Source of the DNA: Brevinematales bacterium | Lineage (GTDB): Bacteria; Spirochaetota; Brevinematia; Brevinematales; GWF1-51-8 | Direction of reading: 5' to 3' | Length of the DNA stretch: 64,000 bases | NCBI GenBank assembly: GCA_013177895.1 | Contig: JABLXV010000003.1 | Span: forward strand, 1 to 64,000 | Part shown: piece after piece, positions 1 to 64,000 of the stretch | Layout: each line of letters begins with the position of its first letter | How positions within the stretch are numbered: the stretch's first letter is position 1 | Position numbers and translations under genes: made by a program | Notes under the pieces: generated by a model | Told to the model about the DNA's origin: nothing | Seen by the model: the letters and a program-made list of their open reading frames with translations, nothing else | Database searches by the model: none

Positions 1-52
1 GAAGCCCCGCTCTTCCCTGATTTTATGGAATAGGATATTAAAAGGAGATCGT

Positions 53-271
53 ATGAATATTATTTATCATGTCAATCAAAAAAGGAATAGGTACAGGGAT
101 ATTGTGTTTATTTCATCTTTCACAGTATGTGATTCTATCTCCGGTATCGGTTACGGAACTAACCGTTATCATACCATTGATTTACCGGAAGAATACGAGA
201 ACTATAAAGAAGCGCATATGCTATGCGAAGAAGGAAGCGGAGAGGATTACCGGTACGGAAGAGTTTCTTAA
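53..271 (+). CDS. Small hypothetical protein (72 aa)
   Basis: I do not recognise this protein. The ATG is preceded by a good Shine-Dalgarno (AAAGGAG, about 6 bases upstream), which is why this frame is chosen over an overlapping frame (69-287) with no ribosome-binding site. It is a soluble-looking, tyrosine-rich protein with no membrane segment and an acidic C-terminal half (PEEYENY, CEEGSGEDY). It is the first of the small-gene array that fills the left 3 kb. Its own promoter, if it has one, lies at or beyond the left edge. No terminator is visible between its stop and the next unit's motif at 295. Confidence 0.55.
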   Translation: MNIIYHVNQKRNRYRDIVFISSFTVCDSISGIGYGTNRYHTIDLPEEYENYKEAHMLCEEGSGEDYRYGRVS

Positions 272-294
272 AATAATCGGAAAATGATATTCAT

Positions 295-310
295 ATCTCG
301 CGGACTGTTA
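295..310 (+). promoter_or_regulatory. Shared ATCTC-N6-TGTTA motif, unit 1
   Basis: ATCTC at 295-299, six bases, TGTTA at 306-310, followed by AT-rich CATTTATAATA. The same spaced pair occurs before at least ten transcription units in the window. TGTTAT could be an extended -10 (TGnTATnnT). The gene it serves starts 30 bases further on. Confidence 0.6.
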
Positions 311-339
311 TCATTTATAATACTTACAGGAGCGAGGGT

Positions 340-663
340 ATGACGAAAGATTTTAGAACGTCCGTAAACGAAGCTGTGAAGGCTTCCAGAGTATCAGGGA
401 AGAAGGATAAGCCCGTCATTACGATGAGCGTGGCGAAGTTTCTCCACTGTGTATACCGGCAAGGTTTTGTTTCAGGTAAAAACACCATGCTCGATAAGGG
501 CGTATGGGTTAAGGATGGATGGAAATACAATTTCCGACCATACCTCAAGAAGTTCATTATGAAGCAAACCGGATTATGGGATGAGCTCTTCGCCCCGTCG
601 AAAGCATATCTCTACCGCGCGATCGCCGGGCACATCGAAGCCGCGCTCGAAGTCGGAGCGTAA
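340..663 (+). CDS. Hypothetical protein (107 aa)
   Basis: Not recognised. The start follows an AGGAGCGAGGG ribosome-binding site. The protein is basic, with a lysine/arginine-rich N-terminal third (KASRVSGKKDK) and aromatic residues in the middle (WVKDGWKYNF, then LWDELF). It has no membrane segment or cysteine motif. It may bind nucleic acid, but only composition supports that. It is a single-gene unit: the shared motif lies at 295-310 and a hairpin plus T-run terminator follows at 683-717. Confidence 0.6.
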   Translation: MTKDFRTSVNEAVKASRVSGKKDKPVITMSVAKFLHCVYRQGFVSGKNTMLDKGVWVKDGWKYNFRPYLKKFIMKQTGLWDELFAPSKAYLYRAIAGHIEAALEVGA

Positions 664-682
664 AAGAAAAGGATTTTAAGAC

Positions 683-717
683 AAGAGGCAGGTTCAATAC
701 TGCCTCTTTTTATTTTC
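683..717 (+). terminator. Rho-independent terminator, unit 1
   Basis: The AAGAGGCAG / CTGCCTCTT stem is followed by TTTTATTTT. The next unit's ATCTC motif begins three bases after the T-tract. Confidence 0.8.
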
Positions 718-719
718 AA

Positions 720-735
720 ATCTCCCCGCCTGTTA
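720..735 (+). promoter_or_regulatory. Shared ATCTC-N6-TGTTA motif, unit 2
   Basis: ATCTC at 720-724, CCCGCC, TGTTA at 731-735. It is nearly identical to the copies at 2174 and 30818 (core CCCGCCTGTTA). The start codon of the next gene is 28 bases downstream. Confidence 0.6.
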
Positions 736-762
736 CCCTGTAAAAGGATAAGGGAGGATTTT

Positions 763-957
763 ATGTTTCTCATGGGAGATGAAGCAAGAATATTCTACGC
801 GATGGCATTGATGGGTAAAACAGAAACGGAAGAACGGGTAAGGGGATTTTACTTCCTTCCGTCCGGCGATGTTGTCGCTTTCGATTTCAACGCCGGTAAA
901 CTCTACACCGACAGTTTCCAAAGAAAAGTCAAAGCCCTCGAATGGTTAAACGTATAA
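763..957 (+). CDS. Small hypothetical protein (64 aa)
   Basis: Not recognised. The start is supported by GGGAGG 7 bases upstream. The sequence has an amphipathic N-terminal helix (EARIFYAMALMG) followed by a beta-like stretch (GFYFLPSGDVVAFDF). It looks like a compact single domain with no cysteines or membrane segment. It is the first gene of a two-gene unit driven from the motif at 720; the next gene begins 26 bases after its stop. Confidence 0.6.
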   Translation: MFLMGDEARIFYAMALMGKTETEERVRGFYFLPSGDVVAFDFNAGKLYTDSFQRKVKALEWLNV

Positions 958-983
958 AAATATTCCATAAAGGAGAGCAAGGT

Positions 984-1229
984 ATGATTGAGAGAACGTT
1001 TATCGTGAGGAAAAGATTTTGTCAGGACGGATCATCCGATCTCGTGAAGACTTTCAAGTCGTTCGATGAAATGAAAAATTTCCTCATCGAACATAATATC
1101 AAAAAGTGGCGCGTCAATATCTTCATGCTCGCTGAGCGTGTCCGTAAGGGAATAGTCGTGGACTTCGATTATTTCCAGCTTAAAAACGTGTCCTGGAACC
1201 GCCAGTCCTGCCCCGCCAGAACCGCATAA
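984..1229 (+). CDS. Small hypothetical protein (81 aa)
   Basis: Not recognised. An in-frame ATG exists at 942 inside the preceding gene, but AAGGAGAGCAAGG sits just before the ATG at 984, so the shorter form is chosen. The protein is basic, begins MIERTFIVRKRF, and is probably a small alpha/beta fold (SFDEMKNFLIEHNIKKW). It is the second gene of the unit that starts at 763. After its stop come a stray ribosome-binding site with a four-codon reading frame (1264-1278) and then a terminator. Confidence 0.55.
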   Translation: MIERTFIVRKRFCQDGSSDLVKTFKSFDEMKNFLIEHNIKKWRVNIFMLAERVRKGIVVDFDYFQLKNVSWNRQSCPARTA

Positions 1230-1263
1230 AAGGTTTTTAAAGGAATATCAATAAGGAGTCCGT

Positions 1264-1278
1264 ATGCGGAACGGTTAA
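1264..1278 (+). other. Four-codon reading frame (MRNG) with its own ribosome-binding site
   Basis: AATAAGGAG precedes an ATG that is followed by only CGG AAC GGT TAA. It lies directly upstream of a terminator. It could be the scar of a deleted gene or a tiny leader peptide; nothing favours either clearly. Confidence 0.3.
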
Positions 1279-1282
1279 GTTT

Positions 1283-1309
1283 AACCCCGGAGATCGTCCG
1301 GGGTTTTTC
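1283..1309 (+). terminator. Rho-independent terminator, unit 2
   Basis: The AACCCCGG / CCGGGGTT stem is followed by TTT. The next ATCTC motif starts at 1312. Confidence 0.8.
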
Positions 1310-1311
1310 TT

Positions 1312-1327
1312 ATCTCTTGCCATGTTA
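1312..1327 (+). promoter_or_regulatory. Shared ATCTC-N6-TGTTA motif, unit 3
   Basis: ATCTC at 1312-1316, TTGCCA, TGTTA at 1323-1327, immediately after the preceding terminator and 27 bases before the next start codon. Confidence 0.6.
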
Positions 1328-1353
1328 TTGATAAAATGAATAAAGGAGCTGGT

Positions 1354-1575
1354 ATGGATATTAATATGAATAACCAGATGTTCGAGTTTCAATTATCCCG
1401 GATCACCGGATTGAAGGGAGTACAGCTTCAGGTTATGATCAGCCAAGTCCTCGCGGCGTTCGCCTATTCTTTCGGAATGAACGACGAAGCCCTGACACTT
1501 GAAAAACAGTCCGCTCAAGTGAAAACTATCGACTTCTTTAGGAAAAACAATTACAGAGCGTTTAGTAACAACTGA
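1354..1575 (+). CDS. Small hypothetical protein (73 aa)
   Basis: Not recognised. An ATG at 1336 is in frame, but AAAGGAGCTGGT lies directly before the ATG at 1354, which is taken as the start. The protein is mostly helical and hydrophobic in the middle (GVQLQVMISQVLAAFAYSFG) without reaching a clear membrane segment, then polar (LEKQSAQVK). It is alone in its unit, with the shared motif at 1312 and a terminator at 1584. Confidence 0.55.
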   Translation: MDINMNNQMFEFQLSRITGLKGVQLQVMISQVLAAFAYSFGMNDEALTLEKQSAQVKTIDFFRKNNYRAFSNN

Positions 1576-1583
1576 CAAAGACT

Positions 1584-1612
1584 TCCCCGGAGAAATCCGG
1601 GGATATCTTTTA
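1584..1612 (+). terminator. Rho-independent terminator, unit 3
   Basis: CCCCGG (1585-1590) pairs with CCGGGG (1597-1602), followed by ATATCTTTTAT. The next ATCTC motif follows two bases later. Confidence 0.7.
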
Positions 1613-1613
1613 T

Positions 1614-1629
1614 ATCTCCGCGACTGTTA
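1614..1629 (+). promoter_or_regulatory. Shared ATCTC-N6-TGTTA motif, unit 4
   Basis: ATCTC at 1614-1618, CGCGAC, TGTTA at 1625-1629. The start codon of the next gene lies 31 bases downstream. Confidence 0.6.
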
Positions 1630-1659
1630 GTATACAAATACAGTACAGAGGGGTTTTCC

Positions 1660-1899
1660 ATGAATAAGACTCAATACGCGGTATGGGTAGAAAATTCGCA
1701 TAAGGCGAGCGAAAAACAAGTCTTTAATCGTTTCGTGTTTATCCTTTCAAGCGATACCGAAGCCGAGGAAGTATGCAGTTATCTCAACCGCATGAGAATT
1801 GAAGAAAACGGTTATACCCACCATTATTATTTTGAACCCGCAGAGCTCACCGAACCTAAAATTTATGTACCGGAGTATTATCACCGAGTCCGCCCGTAA
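1660..1899 (+). CDS. Small hypothetical protein (79 aa)
   Basis: Not recognised. AGAGGGG precedes the ATG. The pattern is beta strand (TQYAVWVEN), helix (KASEKQVFNRF), strand (VFILSS), helix (EAEEVCSYLNRM), resembling a small ferredoxin-like alpha/beta fold. That is inferred from secondary-structure pattern only. It is rich in histidine and tyrosine near the end (THHYYFEP). It is followed 34 bases later by a second gene in the same unit. Confidence 0.6.
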   Translation: MNKTQYAVWVENSHKASEKQVFNRFVFILSSDTEAEEVCSYLNRMRIEENGYTHHYYFEPAELTEPKIYVPEYYHRVRP

Positions 1900-1932
1900 T
1901 GCTGTCATTATCTTTTTGAAAGAGGAGGATAT

Positions 1933-2133
1933 ATGATTTACTGTCAAGAGGAGAGGATTATTCACACAAGACGCCGTACTCATGCCGAAGTCGTCCGCTG
2001 GATTAACGAACACAAATATGACCGCGCTGTCTATTGTGTCGAAAGTGAGTATTCCAAAAGAGGAACCCTGGAGCACCTCGCGGTCGAATACCGGAAAATT
2101 CCGGTTATGAATTCTCCCGTGTTCGCTTTCTGA
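1933..2133 (+). CDS. Small hypothetical protein (66 aa)
   Basis: Not recognised. It has a strong AGAGGAGG ribosome-binding site. It has a basic N-terminal part (RIIHTRRRTHAEVVRWINEHK) and two cysteines (C4, C36). It is the second gene of its unit and ends just before a terminator. A small regulatory protein is possible but nothing specific supports it. Confidence 0.6.
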   Translation: MIYCQEERIIHTRRRTHAEVVRWINEHKYDRAVYCVESEYSKRGTLEHLAVEYRKIPVMNSPVFAF

Positions 2134-2139
2134 TATCTT

Positions 2140-2170
2140 ACCCCGGATGATCTCCGGGGTTTTTTATTTT
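2140..2170 (+). terminator. Rho-independent terminator, unit 4
   Basis: CCCCGG / CCGGGG stem with a seven-base loop, followed by TTTTTTATTTTT. The next ATCTC motif starts at 2174. Confidence 0.85.
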
Positions 2171-2173
2171 TAA

Positions 2174-2189
2174 ATCTCCCCGCCTGTTA
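2174..2189 (+). promoter_or_regulatory. Shared ATCTC-N6-TGTTA motif, unit 5 (RNA unit)
   Basis: ATCTC at 2174-2178, CCCGCC, TGTTA at 2185-2189, then TATGTATGAA. Here the motif is followed not by a protein gene but by about 540 bases of non-coding DNA with two tRNA genes. That argues that the motif is a promoter rather than a translational signal. Confidence 0.6.
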
Positions 2190-2464
2190 TATGTATGAAA
2201 GCGGAAATATTAACTTACAGACCGCAGGAGTAAATCTTAAATAGGTTCTCCAACCTGACGTAAGAAATAACCCCGCTTCCAGATTACGGCAGTCCGGTCC
2301 CTCGGCTTCGGCTCGGGATCGACGCCGGGAGAGTTTTTCCGGTTTCTCTCTTTCAAGGTGAAAAAATCGGTTTATTATAATCATTACGTTATCCGCCTTT
2401 TAGGTATGGAGCGTTTTTGATCGGCGAAGTTTTGAAAGCCGGAGTCCGTTAATCTCCGGTATCC
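2190..2464 (+). ncRNA. 5' part of a tRNA-containing transcript, function unknown
   Basis: No open frame in this stretch has a ribosome-binding site. It lies between the motif at 2174 and the first tRNA, so it is probably transcribed with the tRNAs. Visible structures are an AGGT/ACCT hairpin near 2241, a C-TTCG-G tetraloop hairpin near 2305, and a CCGGAG/CTCCGG hairpin just before the tRNA (about 2439-2460). I could not fold any part into a convincing third tRNA. It may simply be a long leader. Confidence 0.35.
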
Positions 2465-2466
2465 TT

Positions 2467-2540
2467 TTCACCGTAGTCTAATTTGGCAGGACACGGGAGT
2501 TTGAATCCCGAATGTGAAGGTTCGAGTCCTTCCGGTGAAT
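2467..2540 (+). tRNA. tRNA-Gln (anticodon TTG)
   Basis: A full cloverleaf can be drawn: acceptor TTCACCG/CGGTGAA, D-stem GTCT/GGAC, anticodon stem CGGGA/TCCCG around loop GTTTGAA, T-stem GAAGG/CCTTC around TTCGAGT, and discriminator T. The loop places TTG at 34-36, which reads CAA (Gln). No CCA is encoded. The acceptor sequence is not that of a typical bacterial tRNA-Gln, so its charging identity is less certain than its fold. It lies four bases from a second tRNA gene. Confidence 0.85.
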
Positions 2541-2544
2541 ATTT

Positions 2545-2617
2545 GCGACGGTAGCCAAGAGGTTAAGGCAACAGACTGCAAATCTGTTATTCATGGGTTC
2601 AATCCCCATTCGTCGCT
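2545..2617 (+). tRNA. tRNA-Cys (anticodon GCA)
   Basis: The cloverleaf has acceptor GCGACGG/TCGTCGC (one G-T pair), D-stem GCC/GGC, anticodon stem ACAGA/TCTGT around CTGCAAA, T-stem ATGGG/CCCAT around TTCAATC, and discriminator T. The anticodon GCA and discriminator U both fit tRNA-Cys. CCA is not encoded. It is co-transcribed with the upstream tRNA-Gln. Confidence 0.88.
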
Positions 2618-2731
2618 AAGGAAATCCGACCGTGTTCATGCTAAACGGCAACGGCTATCGGGGCGCAGGGGATCGCGCCAGTTCCCACCGGTAGAAAAAC
2701 GGAGAATGTACATTCTCCGGAGAAACATGAG
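2618..2731 (+). ncRNA. Structured RNA segment downstream of the tRNAs
   Basis: This stretch lies between tRNA-Cys and the terminator. It contains a composite hairpin: CTATCGG (2655-2661) pairs with CCGGTAG (2688-2694), enclosing GGCGC/GCGCC (2662-2666 with 2675-2679). A perfect palindrome, GGAGAATGTACATTCTCC, lies at 2701-2718. It does not fold as a tRNA. It could be a separate small RNA or a processing/termination region. No known family is recognised. Confidence 0.4.
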
Positions 2732-2783
2732 ATAGCGGGTAACAGGTGTGATTAGGCTCTACCTGTCCCGCTATTTTTATTTT
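2732..2783 (+). terminator. Rho-independent terminator of the tRNA unit
   Basis: A long stem, ATAGCGGG..ACAGGT with ACCTGTCCCGCTAT, is followed by TTTTATTTT. It is clear and strong. Confidence 0.85.
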
Positions 2784-2826
2784 ATCAGGAAAGGGTATTA
2801 AAAAGGGAATCTTACCGGAAATCTCA

Positions 2827-2842
2827 ATCTCATGCCTTGTTA
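2827..2842 (+). promoter_or_regulatory. Shared ATCTC-N6-TGTTA motif, unit 6
   Basis: ATCTC at 2827-2831, ATGCCT, TGTTA at 2838-2842. Only 22 bases separate it from the start codon, so the leader must be very short. Confidence 0.6.
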
Positions 2843-2864
2843 TCTATTATGCAAGGAGGATACA

Positions 2865-3086
2865 ATGAAGAATATCCACGGAGAAACGGTATGGAACATT
2901 GCCGTAAGAGTAGAGGGTAACGACCTTCTTGAGGTCCGTGTCATTAACGATGTTACCGAAGTCAAAAGGACGGACTCTTTCCTTCTCGCGTGGCCGGTCA
3001 ATCCTGATAATAACAGTAAGACCGGTATCGCTGAGATGATCTGCGGTAAGCGCGGCTGGAATAACAAGGTCGCAATGGCAGCGTAA
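2865..3086 (+). CDS. Small hypothetical protein (73 aa)
   Basis: Not recognised. An in-frame ATG at 2832 lies inside the shared promoter motif, while AAGGAGG stands before the ATG at 2865, so the latter is taken. The protein begins with a beta-like segment (ETVWNIAVRVEGNDLLEVRVINDVTEV) and ends with a basic helix (GKRGWNNK). No membrane segment or metal site. It is alone in its unit, followed by a terminator. Confidence 0.6.
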   Translation: MKNIHGETVWNIAVRVEGNDLLEVRVINDVTEVKRTDSFLLAWPVNPDNNSKTGIAEMICGKRGWNNKVAMAA

Positions 3087-3118
3087 ATATAAAACCCCCT
3101 CTCCTCTTTCTTTCAGTA

Positions 3119-3147
3119 TAACCCCGCAAGGAAAGCGGGGTTTTTTA
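3119..3147 (+). terminator. Rho-independent terminator, unit 6
   Basis: The AACCCCGC / GCGGGGTT stem is followed by TTTTATTTA. It closes the small-gene array. Confidence 0.8.
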
Positions 3148-3621
3148 TTTATCTTTTTAATAATCGTCAATCGTCGCGTGCCGGGAGATATAATACCCCT
3201 ATCCATAGAAACTTTCACTCATATATCCATAATTTTACCCTTTTTTACACATCTTTTAGATCATTCACTATCACACCACAAGACCATATTTCACACTTTA
3301 CTCTATCAAATAATACATATTCCCATAGATAATTTTACTACTCAATATGAATACTAAACCCAATACACGCAATTCCAGCATAGTACCTTAACCCATGCAA
3401 ATTATTCAGTACACAGGTTAAAGGTACTTTGCTACAAATGCTATAGATGGCATTAATGCCATAGGTAACGCTCTGCACAGTTCCCGTACATCGATATGGG
3501 TAAAAAAGCATTACATTTCTCATAATTCATTGTTATATTATACTGTTAGAACGCACATTATTTTACCCATCCCGATATTTTCATCTTTAAGAATATTTCT
3601 CTTTATTTTATGCACAACCTA

Positions 3622-3650
3622 TTGACATTATTATATTTATGCGGTAAAAT
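3622..3650 (+). promoter_or_regulatory. Sigma-70 promoter upstream of the RHH-like gene
   Basis: TTGACA (3622-3627), a 17-base spacer and TAAAAT (3645-3650): a near-consensus housekeeping promoter, unlike the motif used by the neighbouring small genes. Confidence 0.75.
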
Positions 3651-3665
3651 CTATCTTAACCAGAA

Positions 3666-3696
3666 TATGGTAAAGCATGATTTCTTGCTTACCATA
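3666..3696. promoter_or_regulatory. Operator-like inverted repeat
   Basis: TATGGTAAAGCA (3666-3677) faces TGCTTACCATA (3686-3696), with one bulged base. It lies just downstream of the promoter -10, where a repressor would act. A further half site, ATATGGTA, lies near 3753. Autoregulation by the DNA-binding protein encoded next is the simplest reading. Confidence 0.5.
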
Positions 3697-3777
3697 ATAC
3701 TTTTTATGTGATTTATAACTCTTTATATAGCTATAACTTATAAATATAAGAAATATGGTATTTCAGGAGTAATATTT

Positions 3778-4116
3778 ATGCCTAATAATGACGCGGGAGA
3801 TTTAAAAAGAAAAGTGTCTCATCATGTTCTTTTTACCAAAGAAGAAGACCTGAATCTAAAAATGGTCAGGGTTAATTTGGCAAAAAAGAACTATGTTTTT
3901 AGTTCAATGAGTAATATGCTTCGTTTTTTAATTCTTCGCGGTATCGATTTTATGGATAAAGATATGGATATCCAGAAGGAAGAAGATAAAAGATTGGTAG
4001 ATTATAAAACACTTCTTATGAGTGTCGAAAGCATGAAAGACAGTATTATTGATCTTACGGAAAAATTTAAAAAATTGAATATCGGCGTCCAGGACGTATT
4101 GAGTACGCGCAAATGA
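3778..4116 (+). CDS. Probable relaxosome accessory DNA-binding protein (112 aa)
   Basis: It begins with a short basic arm (DLKRKVSHHVLF) followed by an RHH-like pattern in which a strand leads into two helices (EEDLNLKMVRVNLAKK, then MSNMLRFLILRG). The C-terminal half is a likely coiled coil (residues about 65-105). Size, fold pattern and position directly before a MobF relaxase suggest a TraY/TrwA-like protein that binds oriT and controls its own promoter. The family match is not certain because no invariant residue can be checked by eye. CAGGAGT provides the ribosome-binding site. The repeat-rich spacers on either side of the relaxase gene could be its binding sites. Confidence 0.55.
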   Translation: MPNNDAGDLKRKVSHHVLFTKEEDLNLKMVRVNLAKKNYVFSSMSNMLRFLILRGIDFMDKDMDIQKEEDKRLVDYKTLLMSVESMKDSIIDLTEKFKKLNIGVQDVLSTRK

Positions 4117-4318
4117 TTTCAATACTTTTTCAATGAATACAAGATCGGTATTTGTTATTATTAATAACTACAGTTCTGTTAATATTAACAGAACCCAATA
4201 GTATCATTGATATTTCAATGATTACGTTACTATTGATATCGTGTTATTATTAAATTTTGTATCTATTGAATTATGTATTCATTGATTTTGTGATTATTGA
4301 TACTATTCGGAGAAGATG
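4117..4318. repeat. Repeat-rich spacer with 22-bp palindrome; candidate oriT
   Basis: It contains a perfect palindrome, GTTCTGTTAAT/ATTAACAGAAC, at 4173-4194. This is followed by at least six ATTGA/ATTGAT elements roughly 10-20 bases apart up to the relaxase start, including ATTACG..ACTATTGATAT and GTATTCATTGAT. The same words recur in the spacer after the relaxase (7415-7638). Such arrays near a relaxase gene are typical binding sites for relaxosome proteins or relaxase operators. The nick position was not found. Confidence 0.45.
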
Positions 4319-7300
4319 ATGGTTAAGGTTAATAATGGCTACAAAGACCTGAAGGAATACATTGATCTCGCTTCTGATGTAGAAACCAAAGATATTGTTG
4401 AAACCATTCGTGAGCGTAAGAATGAGATTATGAAAACCGCAAAGACGGAAGGGCGTAAAGTGAAGAACGGATATTTTGAAATATCCTTTGCTCCGGATAA
4501 AACCGTATCGATCGCGGCATTGGCCGCTGATGAAATTTTCATAAACGAGAAGATAGTCAAGGCTCATCATAACGCGGTCAGCGTTGTCTATGACTATCTT
4601 AGTAAAAATCTTTCTTATTGCAAAGATGGCGGAAGTTATATAAAAGCGGAGAGTATTGAAGCATACCGGATCGAACACTTCCGAAGCCGGGAGAACGATC
4701 CCCATATTCACACTCATTATGTCATTATGAATGAAGTCAATAATTCCGGAGTAAAACGCGCCGTGTCCAGGGGGTTCTATGATGAACTCTCTCTTGACCG
4801 GATGTATAATCATCAGTTGAATTACGAACTTCATAAAGCCGGTATAAATTCCTACATGGATAACGGGATTACTAAAATCAAAGGAATATCCGATAATGCG
4901 CAAATATACTTCTCAAAGTCAAAATTAAAAATGGATCTTCTCGGCCTTGAGTACGCGGAGAATAATATCGGGGACGAACTTACCGAGGGCGCTGCGGGGC
5001 GCATAAACGCACTGAGTTATGTGATGAATAAATCGGATAAATCCCTTACTCATTTATCGGATTTAAAGGAAGTATGGAATAAGGAGTACGCTGACCTTGC
5101 CGCGCAGGGTGAAGTGAAAAACGCTTATCTTTTAAAGCCCCAATCAAAACGATCTACTGACGAGATAAAACATCCTTTTTCCGGTGGACGGGAACTTGAA
5201 GATATTAATAATGTGGTCAGTCTTGCGATTAAAAATGTAGTGGACCGGCATAGTGTTTTTACTTTGGATAACGTTTTAGAAAGCGTCCGCAAAATATCTG
5301 AAGATGTGACAAAAACACCTTACGATATGAAACTGGTCGAGGAGGTGTTGAGTCGTAAGGGTCTTCGCATTGTGGATTATGCGACAAAGAATATCCGGGA
5401 TTCTTTAATCACTTATCCGTTGTATACCACGTTCGAGGAATGTAAAAAAGAGAAGGATATCATAAACTCGATCAATCTTTTTAAGAAGGGTGAAAGTAAA
5501 ATATTCATTGAGGAAGATGGGAAAGGGATTCCTGCTAAACTAAAATCATTCATTGATGAGTACAATAAATACTTTTACGATACATTCGGGAAAAGGGAAT
5601 ACCTGAACAAAGGGCAGAGGATGGCGCTAAAAGGCATTCTTTCTAAAGAGAAGTTTTGCGTAATGATCGGGGACGCTGGAACCGGTAAGACTAAACTGAT
5701 GAACGCGCTTAAATATATATCAGAGAAAAACGGATGGGTGATCGACGGCCTTGCGCATACCGGAGAAGCCTCGAAAGAATTAAGGTATCAGGGTATTGCG
5801 GCTCAAACAGTAGATTCTTTCCTTCATCAATATAAACACGCCGATGCAGATGTTTTATCGAAAGTATTGAATAACGAAAAACGAATACTGATAATTGATG
5901 AAGCGAGCTTTATTCCGAATAACACGTTTCTTACTTTGATGGAAAAAGCGCAGGCGATGGGTTACGAAAAAATCGTGGTCGTGGGAGATTATAAACAGTT
6001 GACGGCCATAAAATCCGGGAATCCTTTCCTTGTTTCAATATACAATACTGGTACAGATAAACTTCTTCGTCTTTCCCAGATCATGCGCCAGGAACAAAAC
6101 TCGATGTACGCCGAGATGACAAAATACATGGCGGATATCAATAATCTCAACATTCAGGATTTTATTAAAAAGATTGAAAAAATGGGTATTTATTACAAAA
6201 CGGAAGGCAGTACCGAAGATGGCGAACGTAATTTGAAAGACGCTTGGTCGGTCGTCGATAAGTTCAACGAAATACGGAATAAAAAAGGACAGATTGACAC
6301 TGTGCTTATTACCAAGACTCACAAAGATAAAGACCTTCTAAATGCTTTTGTGAGACAGACGCTTAAAGAGACGGATGAACTTCTTGAAAGCGGTCTTTCT
6401 GCTACGGTATACCGTCCGGTCGATATGACTATTGTTGATGTTTGCAGCATGAAAAGTTATTCTAACGGAATGAAACTCATTTTTCAGAATAACACTTTAG
6501 GTATTGAGCGCGGATCGATCGGTATTGTAAAACGTGTTGACGATGAGTTAGGGATTATGGATATCGAGTTTTATAAAGACGGCGTTTACAGCCAGCGTCG
6601 CTTAAATCGTAAAGACTTACTTCATATTGAGGACGTTCAGGTTTATGAAAATCGGCAGCTCGCACTCGGGTTGGGTGACATAATCATGTTTCTTAAAAAT
6701 GAAAAAAAACTCGGTCTTGTCAATGGAGATACTGGCGTGATAGAAGCGGTCGAGAAAGATGAAAAGAACGGCTTTTATATCTCGGTCCATGTTCCTGGAA
6801 AGAAGAATACTGTAAAGATTAATCTGGATAGCCTGTATAACTATAATTTTTTCGATTACGGATATGCCAGTACGATTATGAAAACCCAGGGTAAAAGTAT
6901 CAATAAGGTTATTCTGTATCTTCCCAGCGACGGGTATTATAACTACAATGATCTTTATGTCGCGTTCAGCCGCGGCCGGGAAGAGATACATATATTTACC
7001 GACGATATCGATAAACTCATGTACAACCTTCAGAAAGTCTACCTCAAGGAGAGTATTTTACTGACACGTTTATCCGGGAAAAAATCAGAGTATCTCCAAA
7101 AAGAAGCAGATCGCTTGTGCGGTCTATATGAAGTTCAGGCGGAGGAAGGTAAACTTAAATACAAAGACCTTGTTCCTTTAATTGAAAAAGAGATTTTCAA
7201 AAAGATTAAAGACGGTGATATATCCCACAGTTTTCGCCGGAATTTTGAAGATCGTGAAATGATACTGGATAGATTATTCAAAGAACGGGTGCAAGAAGTC

Positions 7301-7414
7301 GCAAAGCCGGAAGTGCCTCAACCGAAACAGGGTATGCAAGAAAAGAAAAGGGATGTTTCGGAACAGGCTACTATTGATAAAAAGATAAACTTGAAACCTA
7401 ATTTTATTTCTTAA
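4319..7414 (+). CDS. MobF-type conjugative relaxase-helicase (TrwC/TraI-like, 1031 aa)
   Basis: It nicks and unwinds the transferred strand at oriT. The three-histidine metal site is visible (DPHIHTHY, residues about 126-133), preceded by the family's FEISFAPDKTVSI segment near residue 54. A RecD-like helicase follows: Walker A GDAGTGKT near 450, Walker B ILIIDEA near 525, VVGDYKQL, LSQIMRQ, and C-terminal motifs YASTIMKTQGKS and VAFSRGR near 860-885. The N-terminus is shorter than usual: the tyrosines normally found near 18-26 can only be Y8/Y14 here. The second of two adjacent ATGs is chosen because GGAG is only three bases from the first. The C-terminal tail is charged. The coupling protein follows after a repeat-rich spacer. 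Confidence 0.93.
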   Translation: MVKVNNGYKDLKEYIDLASDVETKDIVETIRERKNEIMKTAKTEGRKVKNGYFEISFAPDKTVSIAALAADEIFINEKIVKAHHNAVSVVYDYLSKNLSYCKDGGSYIKAESIEAYRIEHFRSRENDPHIHTHYVIMNEVNNSGVKRAVSRGFYDELSLDRMYNHQLNYELHKAGINSYMDNGITKIKGISDNAQIYFSKSKLKMDLLGLEYAENNIGDELTEGAAGRINALSYVMNKSDKSLTHLSDLKEVWNKEYADLAAQGEVKNAYLLKPQSKRSTDEIKHPFSGGRELEDINNVVSLAIKNVVDRHSVFTLDNVLESVRKISEDVTKTPYDMKLVEEVLSRKGLRIVDYATKNIRDSLITYPLYTTFEECKKEKDIINSINLFKKGESKIFIEEDGKGIPAKLKSFIDEYNKYFYDTFGKREYLNKGQRMALKGILSKEKFCVMIGDAGTGKTKLMNALKYISEKNGWVIDGLAHTGEASKELRYQGIAAQTVDSFLHQYKHADADVLSKVLNNEKRILIIDEASFIPNNTFLTLMEKAQAMGYEKIVVVGDYKQLTAIKSGNPFLVSIYNTGTDKLLRLSQIMRQEQNSMYAEMTKYMADINNLNIQDFIKKIEKMGIYYKTEGSTEDGERNLKDAWSVVDKFNEIRNKKGQIDTVLITKTHKDKDLLNAFVRQTLKETDELLESGLSATVYRPVDMTIVDVCSMKSYSNGMKLIFQNNTLGIERGSIGIVKRVDDELGIMDIEFYKDGVYSQRRLNRKDLLHIEDVQVYENRQLALGLGDIIMFLKNEKKLGLVNGDTGVIEAVEKDEKNGFYISVHVPGKKNTVKINLDSLYNYNFFDYGYASTIMKTQGKSINKVILYLPSDGYYNYNDLYVAFSRGREEIHIFTDDIDKLMYNLQKVYLKESILLTRLSGKKSEYLQKEADRLCGLYEVQAEEGKLKYKDLVPLIEKEIFKKIKDGDISHSFRRNFEDREMILDRLFKERVQEVAKPEVPQPKQGMQEKKRDVSEQATIDKKINLKPNFIS

Positions 7415-7638
7415 TGAATATCAATAGTTACAGATTCTATTGAATAATGACGGTATTATTAATAATAACAGTTTTAATGATTACGCCGTAACTATTGATA
7501 TGTATTCATTGATATCTGTAGTTATTGAAATTATACTTATTGATTGTATTCATTGATTTCTGTTACTATTGAATACTGTTATCATTGATTAGGAATGTTT
7601 TTTACGCTTCTGTTATTATTGAATACAAGGAGTCGGAT
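7415..7638. repeat. Repeat-rich spacer between relaxase and coupling-protein genes
   Basis: About ten ATTGA-type elements occur here (for example TATTGAATAATG, AACTATTGATAT, GTATTCATTGAT twice, TACTATTGAATAC), plus TATTATTAATAATAAC. It echoes the spacer before the relaxase: AATGATTACG, a few bases, then ACTATTGATAT appears in both. It probably holds protein-binding sites for the relaxosome protein or relaxase and the promoter of the coupling-protein operon. Confidence 0.5.
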
Positions 7639-9903: not shown

Positions 9904-9996
9904 AGAAAGCCTTGTTTGTATTTTAACGTTTCATTTTATGGATAAAAAAAATTAGAATCTATATAATTGTTATTACTCATAGGAGGAAATAAATCA

Positions 9997-22090: not shown

Positions 22091-22127
22091 TATCACTTCA
22101 TTATTTTTTCCATCTCTGCTTTACAAA

Positions 22128-22143
22128 TCTCCTAAAGTGTTAT
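22128..22143 (+). promoter_or_regulatory. Shared ATCTC-N6-TGTTA motif before the protease lipoprotein
   Basis: ATCTC at 22128-22132, CTAAAG, TGTTA at 22139-22143, followed by TATATTATAAAC; 30 bases before the start codon. The spacing matches the copies in the 0-3 kb array. Confidence 0.55.
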
Positions 22144-22173
22144 ATATTATAAACATGGTTAGGAGGGCTTTCT

Positions 22174-26281: not shown

Positions 26282-26297
26282 ATCTTTATTCTTGTTA
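26282..26297 (+). promoter_or_regulatory. Variant shared motif (ATCTT-N6-TGTTA) before the HNH gene
   Basis: ATCTT at 26282-26286, TATTCT, TGTTA at 26293-26297; one mismatch to the ATCTC box, same spacing, 19 bases before the start codon. A separate extended -10 (TGTTATAAT, 26260-26268) lies just upstream. Confidence 0.4.
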
Positions 26298-26316
26298 TAG
26301 TTATAAGGAGGGTTAA

Positions 26317-30817: not shown

Positions 30818-30833
30818 ATCTGCCCGCCTGTTA
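30818..30833 (+). promoter_or_regulatory. Shared motif (ATCTG-N6-TGTTA) before the Bet-like gene
   Basis: ATCTG at 30818-30822, CCCGCC, TGTTA at 30829-30833, followed by TATCTTAGAA. Its core is identical to the copies at 720 and 2174. Confidence 0.6.
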
Positions 30834-30865
30834 TATCTTAGAACAGAATAAACAGGAGGATATCC

Positions 30866-43714: not shown

Positions 43715-46228
43715 TTAGGCATATTGGTACTTTTCTTTTGTTGCCATTTCGATCGCTTCGATATCGCTATGTCCTTTATTTTTGTACTTTTTAATTATAT
43801 TCAAATCCACAGGATCGGTCGTAAATAACATTCGCTGGAAATAAGGCAATACAAGGCGTATTACGGTAACGCCCCCATCTTCGGATATTAAAAGGGATTC
43901 GGAGAACTTGCCTTTCACGGTATGCACTGTTTCAGCGATCGTGAATATACCTTCATTGAAAAACGTTTTCTGTTGACCTTGGAGACGCTGCAATTCCTCT
44001 TTTGACGGATTGAGCACAAACTTATAAGCCATCATTGAATCGAGTTTTACCGTAATGCCGGGAGCGTTGGAATACATATCTTCGAAGGCTTGGGTAATAA
44101 GAAATAACGCACCGTATTTTTTTCTAATCTGGCGGATCATTCTTTCGATGAGGGGTATCAAGTAAGGATTATCCTTATAGTTTCGCCATTCGTCCAGAAA
44201 TAACAGTTTCATTTCCGCCATGTTTGCAGGATCGTAGATATAGTTTGCTACCTGTCCGATGATGGATAACATGATCGCGGTCATCAATAATTCGCCGCCT
44301 TTTTCCATTGGAACTATTTCTATACCATTGAGCATATTGTCAAACTTGAAGGGATATTTCTCCGGACCGTTCTCGAAAAACGCACCGTAAGATTTCCCTT
44401 TTTTAAACTGGATCAGGCGGTTCGCTAAATCTGTATTATGTTCCTCATCAATGTTCTTGAATTCATTTTGAATATCCTCGATAGTGATGTAACTAATGTT
44501 ATTTACGTCTTTCTCTACCGCTTCCTCTACAACGGTATCAATCGCTTCTTCGACCAAACCGGACATACCAGGGTCCAGTAACTCATTCGGGGATACCAAA
44601 AATTTAAAGAAATTGAATATCTGGAACTTAGCGAAAGAAAGCCCTACTTCATCATCGAGACCGTTATATTCTTTCCAAGTGATGCCGCGGAACGGGTTAA
44701 GCGTAAGGTTTTTATCCGTCCCTATTTTGTAGTATTTCCCGCCCAATACTTCGACGGTTTTTTCGTAGGAGTCTCCCACGTCAACCGTCCACACCTTAGC
44801 GCCTACTGCCCTGTAATTGCTAATAAAATAGTTAGCCATTACCGATTTTCCGCTTCCCATCGGCGCAATAATGACTCCTGATGGGCTTGTGTTAGACTTG
44901 AATATATCAAAGCCGATTATTTGACCGGAGCGGCCATTGAATAATAACACAGGTTTATCGGTGTTTCCATTCCAATCGCCGTAATACGGGGATATTGCGG
45001 AAATAACCGTATTGAATAAATCTCTTGACCTCTTAAAATACACCCATGTCTTATCAACGTAAGGTAATGATAACGGGAATGAAAAATAAAACAGGTCGAA
45101 CGTCAGCATTTTTTCTTTTTGAAGACTATATCCATACGATGAAAACCTGCTTTCGACCGTTGCCCCAACCTGGGATGATTTTTCAACCTTGTCGTTTGAG
45201 TATACGATCACAGTAACAATCGTATCGTGTTTCGATACGTTTTGTGTTCTCATCGTTTCGTATTGATCTTCAAGAATGGATATTTTTTCGCCCACCCCTT
45301 TCAATCCCTTTGTTCTATCTTTTTTAAATAAATCCTTCTCAATCTGGGCGAGTTTTTCTTGCCGGTTACTCATTAACGTTGTAGCAACGATCATGTATTT
45401 CTGCGGGAGCTGCGGGATAGCTTCGTTTCCGGATTGCAGGTCGCGCATGATAAGCGGGATATCGTCTATGGATACCTCGTCGGGAATGGTTTTCACAGTA
45501 AATACCTGCGCGACATTGTTCGCGGGCATTTCAATCGTGTTGTCGTCGATCGCGCTGTATAACCAATATTCTCCGTCCAGCATTTCTTCTGCTAAATCCC
45601 CGCGTATCGCCCCCTCGCTGTCAATATTGACCTTTCTAAATTCCGTACCTCCTAAGTATTCCCTTACGATCATCGAGAGCATAAATTCATCCACGTTGTA
45701 AGTAAAAATACCAGCGTTCTTATAAATTTCAGAGATACGTTCCCTAATTTCTATAATGCGGTCGTAAGCGGTCAGATCATTGTTTGCTTCATTGATAAGG
45801 GATTCGGAGCCGGTTTTATAACAGACCAATGCCCTGTAAGCCCGGGCTTTATTGTCCTTGTTCTTATCAAACCCTTCCCGAGCAGCGTCTTGAAAGAAGG
45901 TTACGGTGTCTATGGTAATTTTTTGCAGTACTGGATCATCGGTAGTTTTCATATCGATATACCGTTCCAGATACGGATCGATAAAACCGCTGGAAAGCCC
46001 AATAGCCTGCATGACATCGTTCTTCTTCACGATATCGATATTGTAAACGTCGGCAAGTAGTTTTACTTTTGTCGGTGATAAATAAACCACAGGTAGGTAT
46101 CCAAGAACAAACCCTAAACTACCGTCCTTGAGGATATATAACTCTTCTTGATGATCGTAGCCTTGATAGTTTAGAAAATCACTGATACGGACTCGACCTT
46201 CTCCGCCGACATTCATTCCCTTTATCAT
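43715..46228 (-). CDS. traC: TraC/VirB4-like conjugation ATPase (837 aa)
   Basis: The ATPase that powers pilus assembly and the channel. Walker A is APMGSGKS (about residues 455-462) followed by the family's KVWTVDVGDSYEKTVEVLGG; Walker B is LLFLDEWRN (about 672-680), then KYGALFLITQAFEDM. The N-terminal half follows TraC rather than other VirB4s. AAGGAG precedes the ATG. It lies 5 bases after a lipoprotein gene on the same strand. Confidence 0.92.
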   Translation of the reverse strand: MIKGMNVGGEGRVRISDFLNYQGYDHQEELYILKDGSLGFVLGYLPVVYLSPTKVKLLADVYNIDIVKKNDVMQAIGLSSGFIDPYLERYIDMKTTDDPVLQKITIDTVTFFQDAAREGFDKNKDNKARAYRALVCYKTGSESLINEANNDLTAYDRIIEIRERISEIYKNAGIFTYNVDEFMLSMIVREYLGGTEFRKVNIDSEGAIRGDLAEEMLDGEYWLYSAIDDNTIEMPANNVAQVFTVKTIPDEVSIDDIPLIMRDLQSGNEAIPQLPQKYMIVATTLMSNRQEKLAQIEKDLFKKDRTKGLKGVGEKISILEDQYETMRTQNVSKHDTIVTVIVYSNDKVEKSSQVGATVESRFSSYGYSLQKEKMLTFDLFYFSFPLSLPYVDKTWVYFKRSRDLFNTVISAISPYYGDWNGNTDKPVLLFNGRSGQIIGFDIFKSNTSPSGVIIAPMGSGKSVMANYFISNYRAVGAKVWTVDVGDSYEKTVEVLGGKYYKIGTDKNLTLNPFRGITWKEYNGLDDEVGLSFAKFQIFNFFKFLVSPNELLDPGMSGLVEEAIDTVVEEAVEKDVNNISYITIEDIQNEFKNIDEEHNTDLANRLIQFKKGKSYGAFFENGPEKYPFKFDNMLNGIEIVPMEKGGELLMTAIMLSIIGQVANYIYDPANMAEMKLLFLDEWRNYKDNPYLIPLIERMIRQIRKKYGALFLITQAFEDMYSNAPGITVKLDSMMAYKFVLNPSKEELQRLQGQQKTFFNEGIFTIAETVHTVKGKFSESLLISEDGGVTVIRLVLPYFQRMLFTTDPVDLNIIKKYKNKGHSDIEAIEMATKEKYQYA

Positions 46229-51036: not shown

Positions 51037-51990
51037 TTATAACTGTTTTATTTCGTTAGGCTTTGTATTTTCATTACCCTGAACGCCTTCTTTTTCGGAT
51101 TCCTTTTGATAATCCGTCTTCTTTTCACTACCCTCTTTCTCATCCCCTGTCTTTTTATTCTCTTTCATGACATTGGTTTTTGAGGTTATGGAATTACCAT
51201 TTTTCTTCTCATAAATGAAATACTGATTATTATTCGTCGAAAGAGTAACATTCGTCATTTTGATTTTATCCGTAATCTTTACCTGACCTTTATATAAGTT
51301 TACGGTCATCGCATTTGAGACGAATTTGACCTCGAACTCCGTACCGACTACGGTAACATCACCCAACGAAGTTTCGACTTTGTACGTCGTGTCGTTATGC
51401 TGGACTTTAAAGATAAGGTCACCGGACTGGATTTTAACGGTCGTGTTCTTGCCGTCTTTTGTAACTGAATACTTGGAACTTTCTACCGCGACGATCGACG
51501 AATTTTCAACCGAAGCGCTGCCGCCCTTCGCCAGATCATACGACTGCTCTTTCGGTCCAAGATACATGGTTCCCAGCCATACCGCGCCGACAACCATCAT
51601 AATCCCGGCAACGGAAGAAAGGGCGGTACGGAACGTCTTAGCCCGCAGGTTCGCGTGATCCGTTTCCGCGAAGACGAATTCATAACGGCCTTTAAATTCA
51701 TCTTTTTTCATCGCATGAAGGCGTTTCGCGTTCTGTTTGAGTAACCCGACGCCCCATGAATAGAAATCAGCCCTATCGCTTAGATCGACGAAATGCGCAG
51801 GGATGTAGTTATAAAAAAATGACGTAACCAGTTCTTTCGTTTCTTTTTCAGGCAGTCCGAAATAATTAATCTCGCGCAAGAAATCCTTTCCGTAAATTCC
51901 CATCAGGCTTTCGATTGCGCCGGTCGCGTGTCCCTTTGTCCGCTTAATTTCGTAAATCAGGTCTTTAATCTCGCTTGTCATTTTTATCAT
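51037..51990 (-). CDS. FecR-domain protein with sigma-region-2-like N-terminus (317 aa)
   Basis: The C-terminal part holds a FecR-type domain (SGDLIFKVQHND, YKVETSLGDVTVVGTEFEV, VNLYKGQVKI, residues about 185-245) after one membrane helix (about 123-147), and ends in a lysine/glutamate-rich tail. The N-terminal 105 residues follow the pattern of ECF sigma factor region 2 (IYGKDFLREINYFGL, then SFFYNYIPAHF and DFYSWGVGLLKQNAKRLH), with no region 4. FecR proteins usually transmit a signal from the envelope to an ECF sigma factor. Here signal sensor and sigma-like part are one protein. It lies just before the pilin gene and overlaps a small RHH gene by 26 bases, so it may control the transfer genes. 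Confidence 0.7.
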   Translation of the reverse strand: MIKMTSEIKDLIYEIKRTKGHATGAIESLMGIYGKDFLREINYFGLPEKETKELVTSFFYNYIPAHFVDLSDRADFYSWGVGLLKQNAKRLHAMKKDEFKGRYEFVFAETDHANLRAKTFRTALSSVAGIMMVVGAVWLGTMYLGPKEQSYDLAKGGSASVENSSIVAVESSKYSVTKDGKNTTVKIQSGDLIFKVQHNDTTYKVETSLGDVTVVGTEFEVKFVSNAMTVNLYKGQVKITDKIKMTNVTLSTNNNQYFIYEKKNGNSITSKTNVMKENKKTGDEKEGSEKKTDYQKESEKEGVQGNENTKPNEIKQL

Positions 51991-52153
51991 CTTTCTTCTC
52001 CTTATAATGACTGTTTTTAGACAAGTATTCCTTGATGATCTTGTAATATAATTCTTTCATGCTTATCCCAAGATCGGTAGCTTCATGCTTCAAGCCTTTC
52101 AGCATATCTTCCGGGATCTCAAATGATGTTTTTTTCATTATTTCATTACTCAT
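51965..52153 (-). CDS. Ribbon-helix-helix protein (62 aa)
   Basis: Residues about 8-40 form a classic RHH: strand KTSFEIPE, helix DMLKGLKHEATDLG, helix SMKELYYKIIKEYL, followed by a lysine-rich tail. Such proteins are DNA-binding repressors. GAGGAG precedes the start. It overlaps the FecR-type gene by 26 bases, so the two are probably co-expressed and may regulate the transfer genes. Confidence 0.75.
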   Translation of the reverse strand: MSNEIMKKTSFEIPEDMLKGLKHEATDLGISMKELYYKIIKEYLSKNSHYKEKKDDKNDKRD

Positions 52154-54714: not shown

Positions 54715-54730
54715 ATCTCATCCCCTGTTA
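54715..54730 (+). promoter_or_regulatory. Shared ATCTC-N6-TGTTA motif before the helicase operon
   Basis: ATCTC at 54715-54719, ATCCCC, TGTTA at 54726-54730, then TATGTATGAA, the same downstream bases as at 2190. Confidence 0.6.
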
Positions 54731-54763
54731 TATGTATGAATAACTGTAAGGAGAGAGAAATCC

Positions 54764-63106: not shown

Positions 63107-63129
63107 TGCGTATATATTATGACTTAGTA

Positions 63130-63182: not shown

Positions 63183-64000
63183 ATGGCAAAAAAGGACCCG
63201 AAAAAATACCTAATCAGACAATCAAATCTATTATCATTTTCAAGACATGACCTTAATTCAGTAGAAAAAAGAATCTTATACTTGATTGTAGCTCGAATCA
63301 AACCTGATGATAAGGATTTCCATGATTATACGTTTACCATAAAAGAACTTGTCGAAGGTTTAGATATAGGGGCTGACAATCATACTTTTTTAATAGAGAC
63401 TACTGAAAAATTAATGAAAAAAGTCTATCAAATCCCGATGGAAGATTCGAAAGACTTGATCATCGCTCCAATATCAAGCGCGGTTCACGATAAATTATTA
63501 CACACATTGACCTTTCGCTTCGATCCTAATATGAAACCACACTACATGGAACTTAAAAAAAACTACACTCAATACCAATTAGAAATAGTAATTGGTTTAA
63601 AAAGTGTCTATTCACAAAAATTCTATGAGATGGCTAAAAGTATAGCGAATAAAGGTGATCCGACAGTTCGTTATAGTATTGCAGAGTGGCGTTACCTTCT
63701 TTTCATTGAACCGAACGAATACAAGCTTTATGCTGATATGAAGCGTAAAATATTCAATGTAGCACAGAAAGAATTGGATGAAAAGACTGATATTCACATT
63801 GAATTTAAAGAAGAAAAATCCGGACATAATGTGAATTGGGTATGGATGGAAGTTCACAAAATTGATAACGAAGAACAGCGTCAGGAATGGATAAGGCAGA
63901 CAAAATTCAATCAGCTTCCAAAAAAAGTCCGAGAACAGTTATTATTAAAATCCGGGGCTACCGTCAAAAAAAGTATAAATGATATAGCTTCTAATGTAGA
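63183..64000 (+). CDS. rep: Rep_3-family replication initiator, 3' end missing
   Basis: Translated by hand: at least 272 codons without a stop, running past the right edge. It begins MAKKDPKKYLIRQSN and continues LLSFSRHDLNSVEKRILYLI, typical of RepB/Rep_3 initiators (winged-helix pairs). The later block TQYQLEIVIGLKSVYSQKFYEMAKS matches the conserved Y..L......S.YS..FYE segment of the second winged helix. It binds the iterons upstream to open the origin. GAGGTG serves as ribosome-binding site. A longer C-terminal part presumably lies beyond the window. Confidence 0.9.
   Translation, partial: MAKKDPKKYLIRQSNLLSFSRHDLNSVEKRILYLIVARIKPDDKDFHDYTFTIKELVEGLDIGADNHTFLIETTEKLMKKVYQIPMEDSKDLIIAPISSAVHDKLLHTLTFRFDPNMKPHYMELKKNYTQYQLEIVIGLKSVYSQKFYEMAKSIANKGDPTVRYSIAEWRYLLFIEPNEYKLYADMKRKIFNVAQKELDEKTDIHIEFKEEKSGHNVNWVWMEVHKIDNEEQRQEWIRQTKFNQLPKKVREQLLLKSGATVKKSINDIASNV

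Follow-up and report, generated by a model that had tools for sequence, protein, structure and literature searches.

Organization of the repeated units at the start of contig C3

The window analyzed here is the first 64 kb (64,000 nucleotides) of contig C3 (103.6 kb; JABLXV010000003.1) from the assembly of a Brevinematales bacterium. The contig represents a MOB_F conjugative plasmid, as indicated by a TrwC relaxase and a Rep_3 replication initiator, together with a T4SS ATPase gene whose product was taken as VirB4-like by eye. The first 3.1 kb consist of six consecutive units, each composed of a short box with the motif ATCTC-N6-TGTTA, one or two small genes or a pair of tRNAs and, in most cases, a terminator immediately in front of the next box. 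The features are listed in Table 1.

Table 1 Features of the window and related positions on contig C3
Coordinates	Strand	Feature	Details
295..319	+	Box of unit 1	Exact match; PWM score 25.2
340..663	+	Unit 1 gene	107 aa, orphan
684..717	+	Unit 1 terminator	T-tract ends 3 nt before the next box
720..744	+	Box of unit 2	Exact match
763..957	+	Unit 2 gene a	64 aa; homologue on sister plasmid contig C50 behind the other box
984..1229	+	Unit 2 gene b	81 aa, orphan; no box in front of it
1312..1336	+	Box of unit 3	Exact match; preceding T-tract ends 3 nt upstream
1354..1575	+	Unit 3 gene	73 aa
1614..1638	+	Box of unit 4	Exact match; preceding T-tract ends 2 nt upstream
1660..1899	+	Unit 4 gene a	79 aa, orphan
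1933..2133	+	Unit 4 gene b	66 aa, orphan
2174..2198	+	Box of unit 5, which has no protein-coding gene	Exact match; preceding T-tract ends 2 nt upstream
2467..2617	+	Unit 5 tRNAs	tRNA-Gln(UUG) 2467-2540, tRNA-Cys(GCA) 2545-2617
2618..2790	+	Structured 3' part of unit 5	z = -3.5; ends in a strong hairpin (2731-2773) and T-tract
2827..2851	+	Box of unit 6	Exact match; no adjacent terminator
2865..3086	+	Unit 6 gene	73 aa; paralogue g132 at C3:99723-99947 also directly behind a box
3121..3151	+	Unit 6 terminator	
3440..3447	-	Candidate nic TCT/ATAGC	Identical to R388 nic core; T-strand would run leftwards into the array
3778..4116	+	Small gene between oriT candidate and relaxase	Position of TrwA; no family found
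4316..7414	+	TrwC/MOB_F relaxase-helicase	
9957..9981	+	Further box	Before gene 9997-11019
11462		Rad52-like	
22127..22151	+	Further box	Before clostripain-like gene 22174-23697
26282..26306	+	Further box	Before gene 26317-26808
30818..30842	+	Further box	Before RecT gene 30866-31765
43715..46228		VirB4-like protein (by eye)	837 aa; conserved on sister contig C41
51037..51990	-	Candidate factor g060	Sigma-region-2-like domain, membrane segment, FecR domain; near the head of the T4SS genes
51965..52153		CopG-like protein	
54715..54739	+	Further box	Before 54764-56798 (unknown gene, then SNF2 helicase)
63183..64000	+	Rep_3 initiator	Continues to C3:64088; a box follows at C3:64136

The first-pass annotation had described six units sharing the motif, with the T-tract of one terminator ending 1-3 bases before the next box in four cases, and this observation is confirmed. 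In addition to the six exact sites of the array, three more are present in the window, giving nine in total, and 17 sites with at most one mismatch were found against 5.8 expected. The box of unit 6 departs from the pattern, as the T-tract closing the tRNA unit stops about 43 nt upstream of it. The statement that the encoded proteins (64-107 aa) have no recognizable relatives holds in Pfam, PHROGs, NCBIfam and, for the proteins tried, plasmid and phage records, although two of these genes have a paralogue on the same contig or a homologue on the sister plasmid (Table 1). In the array, no Rfam family other than tRNA was detected, apart from a sub-threshold antisense hit over the tRNA. A 185-bp repeat was observed as well. 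The annotation understated the extent of the array, which runs over most of C3, and that of the conserved element, which continues through position +24.

Distribution of the element and its counterpart on a sister plasmid

The motif proved to be the core of a 25-bp element (WATCTY-N5-YTGTTAT-N3-TNAAA) with about 46 copies on C3, all on the + strand and at a near-constant distance from the SD and ATG; 36 of the 45 measurable copies lie 42-49 nt before a start codon. The element was found in front of 37 of 46 genes with a wide 5' gap but of 0 of 27 tightly packed genes, and it also precedes a tRNA unit, so it marks the starts of transcription units rather than of translation. At 23 sites a terminator T-tract ends 0-3 nt before it. 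The element is essentially absent from the other 3.5 Mb of the genome: 24 of 26 exact matches genome-wide lie on C3, and with the longer pattern, 33 of 37.

These data raise the question of whether the element exists outside this plasmid. Exact scans of viral contigs and GTDB genomes returned only single chance hits, and a pattern search in 100 relatives gave counts at chance level; three of these genomes (G050, G060 and G066) were checked individually and dropped. A Spirochaetes genome (G394) appeared to be enriched, but its hits are Sel1 repeats and other coding sequence. Searches with the relaxase, the VirB4-like protein, the Rep and the small proteins revealed no close plasmid outside this genus. 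A Pif1 helicase encoded on C3 has a 60% identical chromosomal-type copy in this genus and is uninformative about plasmid relatives.

A related plasmid was, however, identified in the same assembly (contigs C41 and C50), with a Rep 64% identical to that of C3 and the same T4SS; that the two plasmids share one cell is assumed from the assembly. This sister plasmid has the same layout, with terminators and ATG similarly placed, but a different box, GAAAT-N9-CGTCTATAT, and no C3-type site scoring 12 or more. The homologous cargo genes g003, g122, g124 and g129 occur in a changed order and carry the box of the plasmid they sit on. The comparison of whole units in a related plasmid, which had been proposed beforehand as a test of the array, revealed gain, loss and reordering of units. 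A third Rep relative in the genome (contig C48) and one in another genome (G003) show no box array, as far as their contigs go. CRISPR spacers on the sister plasmid do not match C3.

The array lies beside a candidate oriT. The nic match and the layout mirror R388, and the polarity of the match would place the array in the leading region, with gene orientation fitting a T-strand template; however, the 8-base match has a chance probability of about 0.02, and the contig ends have not been joined.

A predicted sigma-region-2-like protein as the candidate factor

Another important question is what could read such an element. Both plasmids encode a protein (g060 on C3) whose N-terminus of about 95 aa models as ECF sigma region 2, followed after about residue 100 by a hydrophobic membrane segment and a FecR domain (Pfam, 1.8e-8 and 6.2e-8); no region 4 was found. 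Among the top 19 Foldseek hits of the g060 N-terminus, 18 are described as sigma factors or sigma complexes, and the other is a chain of an RNA-guided transcription complex; the best is sigmaE region 2 on -10 DNA (TM 0.82 over the target, 1.9 A, prob 1.00). The homologue on the sister plasmid also hits mostly ECF sigmas, although more weakly. These are predicted models resting on two sequences, the Foldseek E-values are 0.12 or worse, and no sigma family was found by sequence. Full-length relatives were found only on these two plasmids among the 149 genomes searched. Nothing links g060 to the box except co-occurrence on two plasmids that also share a T4SS, and a sigma factor without region 4 would be unusual. 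The boxes themselves do not have the -35 and -10 with a 16-17 bp spacer of ECF target promoters: the spacers are 6 (C3) and 9 (sister), and nothing is conserved further upstream, although the sister box does contain CGTC.

Interpretation and comparison with known systems

We suggest, with moderate confidence, that the array is the start of a plasmid-wide establishment regulon. In this view, each unit opens with the same compact promoter, private to this plasmid, which comprises a -10-like block TGTTAT, an unusually close upstream block ATCTY, no conserved -35 at normal spacing and a predicted start near +23 to +27 of the element. It would drive one to four small genes or tRNAs, and each unit would close with its own terminator, so that units can be added, lost or reordered independently. 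A plasmid-encoded factor would be needed because the element is essentially absent from the chromosome; the best candidate is g060, and its homologue would read the different box of the sister plasmid. The units would lie on the leading side of the oriT candidate and be transcribed towards it, so they would be copied from the strand that enters a recipient first. The element, its placement, its restriction to the plasmid, the second plasmid with a second box and the same layout, the shared cargo with swapped boxes and the predicted sigma-2 fold are results of our analysis. The rest is inferred from sequence alone, in the absence of mapped transcript ends: promoter activity is very likely, the need for a plasmid factor is likely, the leading-region position is probable, and the role of g060 as the factor remains tentative. 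Expression after conjugation likewise belongs to the inferred part.

The interpretation in the first-pass annotation, a cassette array of separately expressed small cargo beside a candidate oriT and possibly in the leading region, is partly supported. Units bounded by a shared promoter-like box and a terminator, their position beside a candidate oriT and the gain, loss and reordering of whole units agree with it, whereas exchange by cassette-style site-specific recombination is not supported. Shared genes carry the box of the plasmid they sit on, so the box behaves as a functional promoter private to each plasmid rather than a moving cassette boundary.

Alternative explanations are less probable. 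The most plausible of them, although rather unlikely, is that the box is the operator-promoter of a plasmid repressor or activator, for example a ribbon-helix-helix protein, acting with the ordinary sigma factor of the host, as Reg of p576 does for its establishment genes. This logic is known for establishment operons (PMC8708921), C3 encodes a CopG-like protein, and ATCTY and TGTTAT are 11 bp apart, one helical turn. However, no sigma70-like -35 is conserved next to the box, even at the 14 sites without a terminator, and the element is neither palindromic nor a direct repeat, unlike the Reg dual heptamer. It is unlikely that the boxes are single-stranded-DNA promoters (Frpo/ssi-like) active on the incoming T-strand, although all 46 lie on the strand whose template would be the T-strand and 0 of 16 minus-strand genes with a 5' gap have one. 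The box and SD region are more complementary within a site than between sites (p about 0.004-0.009; controls 0.13-0.62), but this excess is small, no consensus -35/-10 in a long stem was found, hairpins vary in register and are absent at many sites, and the box also serves genes far from oriT.

The same p values, the complementarity of ATCTCC to GGAG and the near-fixed distance to the SD could also indicate an RNA-level leader that masks the ribosome-binding site. This is very unlikely, since the box precedes a tRNA unit, is missing before all 27 downstream genes in operons and follows the terminator by 0-3 nt, leaving no room for a promoter upstream. An integron-like array with the terminator-box junction as a recombination site is at least as doubtful. 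Units are reordered between the plasmids, some junctions share DNA (e.g. 100337/100661), and the spacer CCCGCC occurs at five sites, but only the promoter element is shared throughout: the terminators differ at every junction, the variable columns of the boxes are mostly independent, boxes also serve isolated genes, no attC-like site was seen, and no integrase was found among the proteins scanned, which did not include every C3 protein. Ordinary recombination (RecT, Rad52-like) would suffice.

A more far-reaching possibility, which we consider unlikely but not excluded, is that conjugative plasmids of this lineage each carry a private transcription language. A membrane-tethered sigma factor reduced to region 2 and fused to FecR would be released on a mating-related signal and recognize a -10 block plus a close upstream block repeated before dozens of leading-region units. 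Co-resident sister plasmids would have diverged to different languages and so would not cross-activate, and cargo genes would have to acquire the local promoter when they move.

How newly arrived plasmids switch on dozens of small establishment genes, and how sister plasmids keep their gene expression apart in one cell, are open questions. Here, the control element can be read from sequence alone in two plasmids with two different elements and overlapping cargo, which makes the identity of the factor, its specificity and its link to mating directly testable. If a sigma factor made only of region 2 reads these promoters, it would be a new minimal form of bacterial promoter recognition. The box also gives a simple way to find and group unknown establishment and anti-defence genes on such plasmids.

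Among known systems, the establishment regulons of the pLS20 family (EGeRS1, EGeRS2/Reg; PMC8708921) likewise have a repeated plasmid-specific sequence upstream of several operons of small establishment genes on a conjugative plasmid, and related plasmids use different sequences for the same kind of genes. There, however, 4-5 copies of 140-600 bp are present, with a dual-repeat operator beside a sigmaA promoter in EGeRS2, whereas C3 has about 46 copies of an asymmetric two-block element of 25 bp with no sigma70 consensus and no flanking -35, about half of them directly behind a terminator. Leading-region anti-defence islands with Frpo/ssi promoters (PMC11541004, PMC9849209) are comparable in their leading-region position, which is a candidate position here, and in gene orientation, and the sister array encodes an ArdC-like protein (recognized by eye); the Frpo-like stem with -35/-10 is lacking, and most C3 units are orphans rather than known anti-defence genes. 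The IutY sigma/anti-sigma fusion of Pseudomonas putida (PMC5411451) also combines a cytosolic ECF-sigma-like N-terminus, a membrane segment and a periplasmic FecR-type part in one polypeptide, but g060 has only the predicted region-2-like domain, no receptor gene was seen, and the gene sits near the head of a T4SS cluster on a plasmid. The start-associated sequences of cluster K mycobacteriophages (PMC3203893) are asymmetric, short, present in many copies, mostly in one orientation and just upstream of genes, many of unknown function; they are GGGATAGGAGCCC-like and sit at the start codon, whereas the C3 box has a different sequence, marks unit starts after terminators and also precedes tRNAs. 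Finally, the R388 oriT/TrwC system shares with C3 a TrwC-type relaxase, the nic core TCTATAGC, which is a candidate nic site on C3, and the placement of relaxase genes and leading region, a putative one on C3, on opposite sides of oriT, although the C3 relaxase is only about 24% identical to R388-type proteins and the putative leading side of C3 carries the array, not stbABC.

The box array of contig C3 and its surroundings

Contig C3 (103,604 bp), of which the window covers bases 1-64000, belongs to a 3.6-Mb assembly of 112 contigs and represents a conjugative plasmid with a TrwC relaxase, a Rep_3 initiator, ParA and a T4SS cluster, the genes of the last being recognized by manual inspection and by their conserved order on C41, a contig of the sister plasmid. 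The coordinates of these and other features are presented in the table below. The first-pass annotation described six consecutive small units at 295-3147, each opening with ATCTC-N6-TGTTA and closing with a terminator, and this observation was confirmed: all six units were found at their coordinates and with the terminator spacing given for them.

Another question is whether the motif is limited to these 3 kb. It is not, as exact ATCTC-N6-TGTTA occurs 24 times on C3 and twice in the other 3.5 Mb of the genome, and WATCTY-N6-TGTTAT occurs 33 times on C3 and four times elsewhere, while the reversed control patterns gave 1 and 3 matches in the whole genome. A weight matrix search revealed 46 usable sites, all on the + strand, which are densest at 76-103.6 kb and 0.3-2.9 kb; these would be one region if the contig ends join. 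The consensus is WATCTY-N5-YTGTTAT-N3-TNAAA, followed by AAGGAG, typically at +31 to +33, and by the start codon, which lies at +42 to +49 for 36 of 45 sites. No -35-like block is conserved upstream; the T-richness at -7 to -3 belongs largely to the terminators and shrinks at the 14 sites without one. In the accessory region, 37 of 46 genes with a 5' gap of 40 nt or more (or following a minus-strand gene) have a box, against 0 of 27 tightly packed genes, and the box at 2174 serves tRNA-Gln and tRNA-Cys. Thus, the box marks transcription-unit starts. At 23 sites the T-tract ends 0-3 nt before the box, and 32 of 46 boxes have a terminator within 70 nt, against 57 of 346 random positions. The RNA that follows tRNA-Cys is strongly folded (z = -3.5) and matched no Rfam family, and in addition to the two tRNA genes the plasmid carries a CCA-adding-type tRNA nucleotidyltransferase.

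The small proteins of the window are orphans. Paralogues in different units of C3 nevertheless exist (gene pairs g009/g132, g112/g138, g113/g140 and g091/g105). Genes g112 and g113 are neighbours without a box between them, whereas g138 and g140 each lie behind their own box, indicating that units gain and lose boundaries. The box columns outside the conserved ones are mostly independent, with limited copying (12 identical-spacer pairs against 0.9 expected, mostly from CCCGCC at five sites).

The 631-nt gap between the array and the gene preceding the relaxase contains TCTATAGC once, and this is the R388 nic core TCT/ATAGC (PMC4814116). In R388 the T-strand leaves the relaxase genes behind, and here that direction leads into the array. 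The probability of such a match by chance is about 0.02, so the evidence for a leading-region position is good but not conclusive. The units are transcribed towards the candidate oriT, as leading-region genes usually are (PMC11541004). The first-pass interpretation of a cassette array in a possible leading region was supported only in part, since integron-like cassettes are not supported.

Coordinates of features on C3 and on the sister plasmid (contigs C41 and C50); L027 and L028 denote stretches of C3, and L286, L287 and L309 stretches of the sister plasmid
Feature	Location	Strand	Remarks
tRNA-Gln and tRNA-Cys genes	window 2467-2617
Strongly folded RNA	window 2618-2790
Gap with candidate nic	window 3147-3777
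Candidate nic	window 3440-3447	-
TrwC relaxase	window 4316-7414
Restriction-modification enzyme	window 16174-19293		type ISP
T4SS cluster	C3, about 31-52 kb	-
g060, candidate factor	window 51037-51990	-
Direct repeat	window 62764-63111		185 bp at 95% identity, period 163, just upstream of rep; possible origin of replication
Rep_3 initiator	C3:63183-64088
tRNA nucleotidyltransferase	L027 5514-6920		CCA-adding type
52-aa protein	C3:75859-76017 (L027 11859-12017)		resembles, by inspection, the glycyl-radical C-terminus of anaerobic ribonucleotide reductase; a 75% identical stretch lies on C41
ParA	C3:97482-98249
Pif1-like helicase	L028 11000-12292		60% identical copy on contig C28 of the same genome and in sister species
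Putative type I-E CRISPR-Cas locus	L286 (C50) 1-9533
Leader-like element	L287 3598-3680, 4918-4980; L309 10810-10870, 13030-13105
ArdC-like anti-restriction protein	L287 5036-5944

A different box on the sister plasmid

Contigs C41 and C50 of the same assembly carry a related plasmid (Rep 64%, ParA 36%, VirB4-like protein 31%, same T4SS order). They show the same layout with another box, GAAAT-N9-CGTCTATATNTA, located about 30 nt before ATG where no longer leader intervenes. Of 28 exact genome-wide matches to AAWT-N9-CGTCTA, 13 fall on these 61 kb and the remaining 15 on 3.5 Mb, and 13 of 20 boxes follow a terminator. C3-type boxes are absent there (0 sites of 12 bits or more), and no sister-type box stands out on C3 (best score 14, true sites 16-35). 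Four C3 cargo families, g003, g122, g124 and g129, occur on C50 in units that begin with the C50 box; g124 and g129 share one unit on C50, while on C3 they lie 3.4 kb apart behind separate boxes. A third Rep relative in the genome (contig C48) and one in a congeneric genome show no array and no g060 homologue on the contigs examined.

A repeated leader-like element (GTCCCGCGA...GTCAATAA...GAGCGGGG) without a match in Rfam follows several boxes of the sister plasmid, and its array encodes an ArdC-like anti-restriction protein, recognized by inspection alone, behind its own box. C50 also carries what reads as a type I-E CRISPR-Cas locus (cas genes recognized by inspection) with 24 repeats, although its spacers do not match C3.

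A predicted sigma-like candidate for the factor

These data raise the question of which protein reads the box. The element is essentially absent from the chromosome, so a plasmid protein should read it. Both g060 and its C41 homologue (23% identical) have FecR domains. The AlphaFold model of g060 residues 1-126 (pLDDT 73-88 for residues 11-90 and below 50 after 98) matched sigma factors or sigma complexes in 18 of the top 19 Foldseek hits, the best being sigmaE region 2 bound to -10 DNA (TM 0.82 over the target, 1.9 A, probability 1.00, although with an E-value of 0.12). The C41 model is weaker but gives the same family. Among 149 genomes, full-length relatives occur only on C3 and C41, and the other listed hits cover the FecR part. 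A sigma factor without region 4 fits promoters without a normal -35, and CGTC is a familiar ECF -10 core. While the two elements, their placement and the exchanged cargo are observed directly in the sequences, the sigma-like fold is a prediction, and the link between g060 and the box, like the promoter activity of the box itself, is inferred.

ALTERNATIVES and comparison with known systems

The strongest rival possibility is a repressor or activator acting with the host sigma factor, in a p576-like manner. Single-stranded promoters and RNA leaders are weaker explanations, as the complementarity between the box and the SD is statistically detectable but small (own against swapped pairs, p 0.004-0.009).

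We found no paper describing the combination of features reported here, although the literature search covered an open-access library only. Repeated plasmid-specific sequences before establishment operons are known (PMC8708921), as are leading-region promoters and a sigma/anti-sigma fusion, IutY (PMC5411451). Compared with these, what is new here is the scale (about 46 copies), the compactness of the terminator-box junctions, the existence of two sister plasmids with two different elements and exchanged cargo, and a region-2-only sigma-like candidate.
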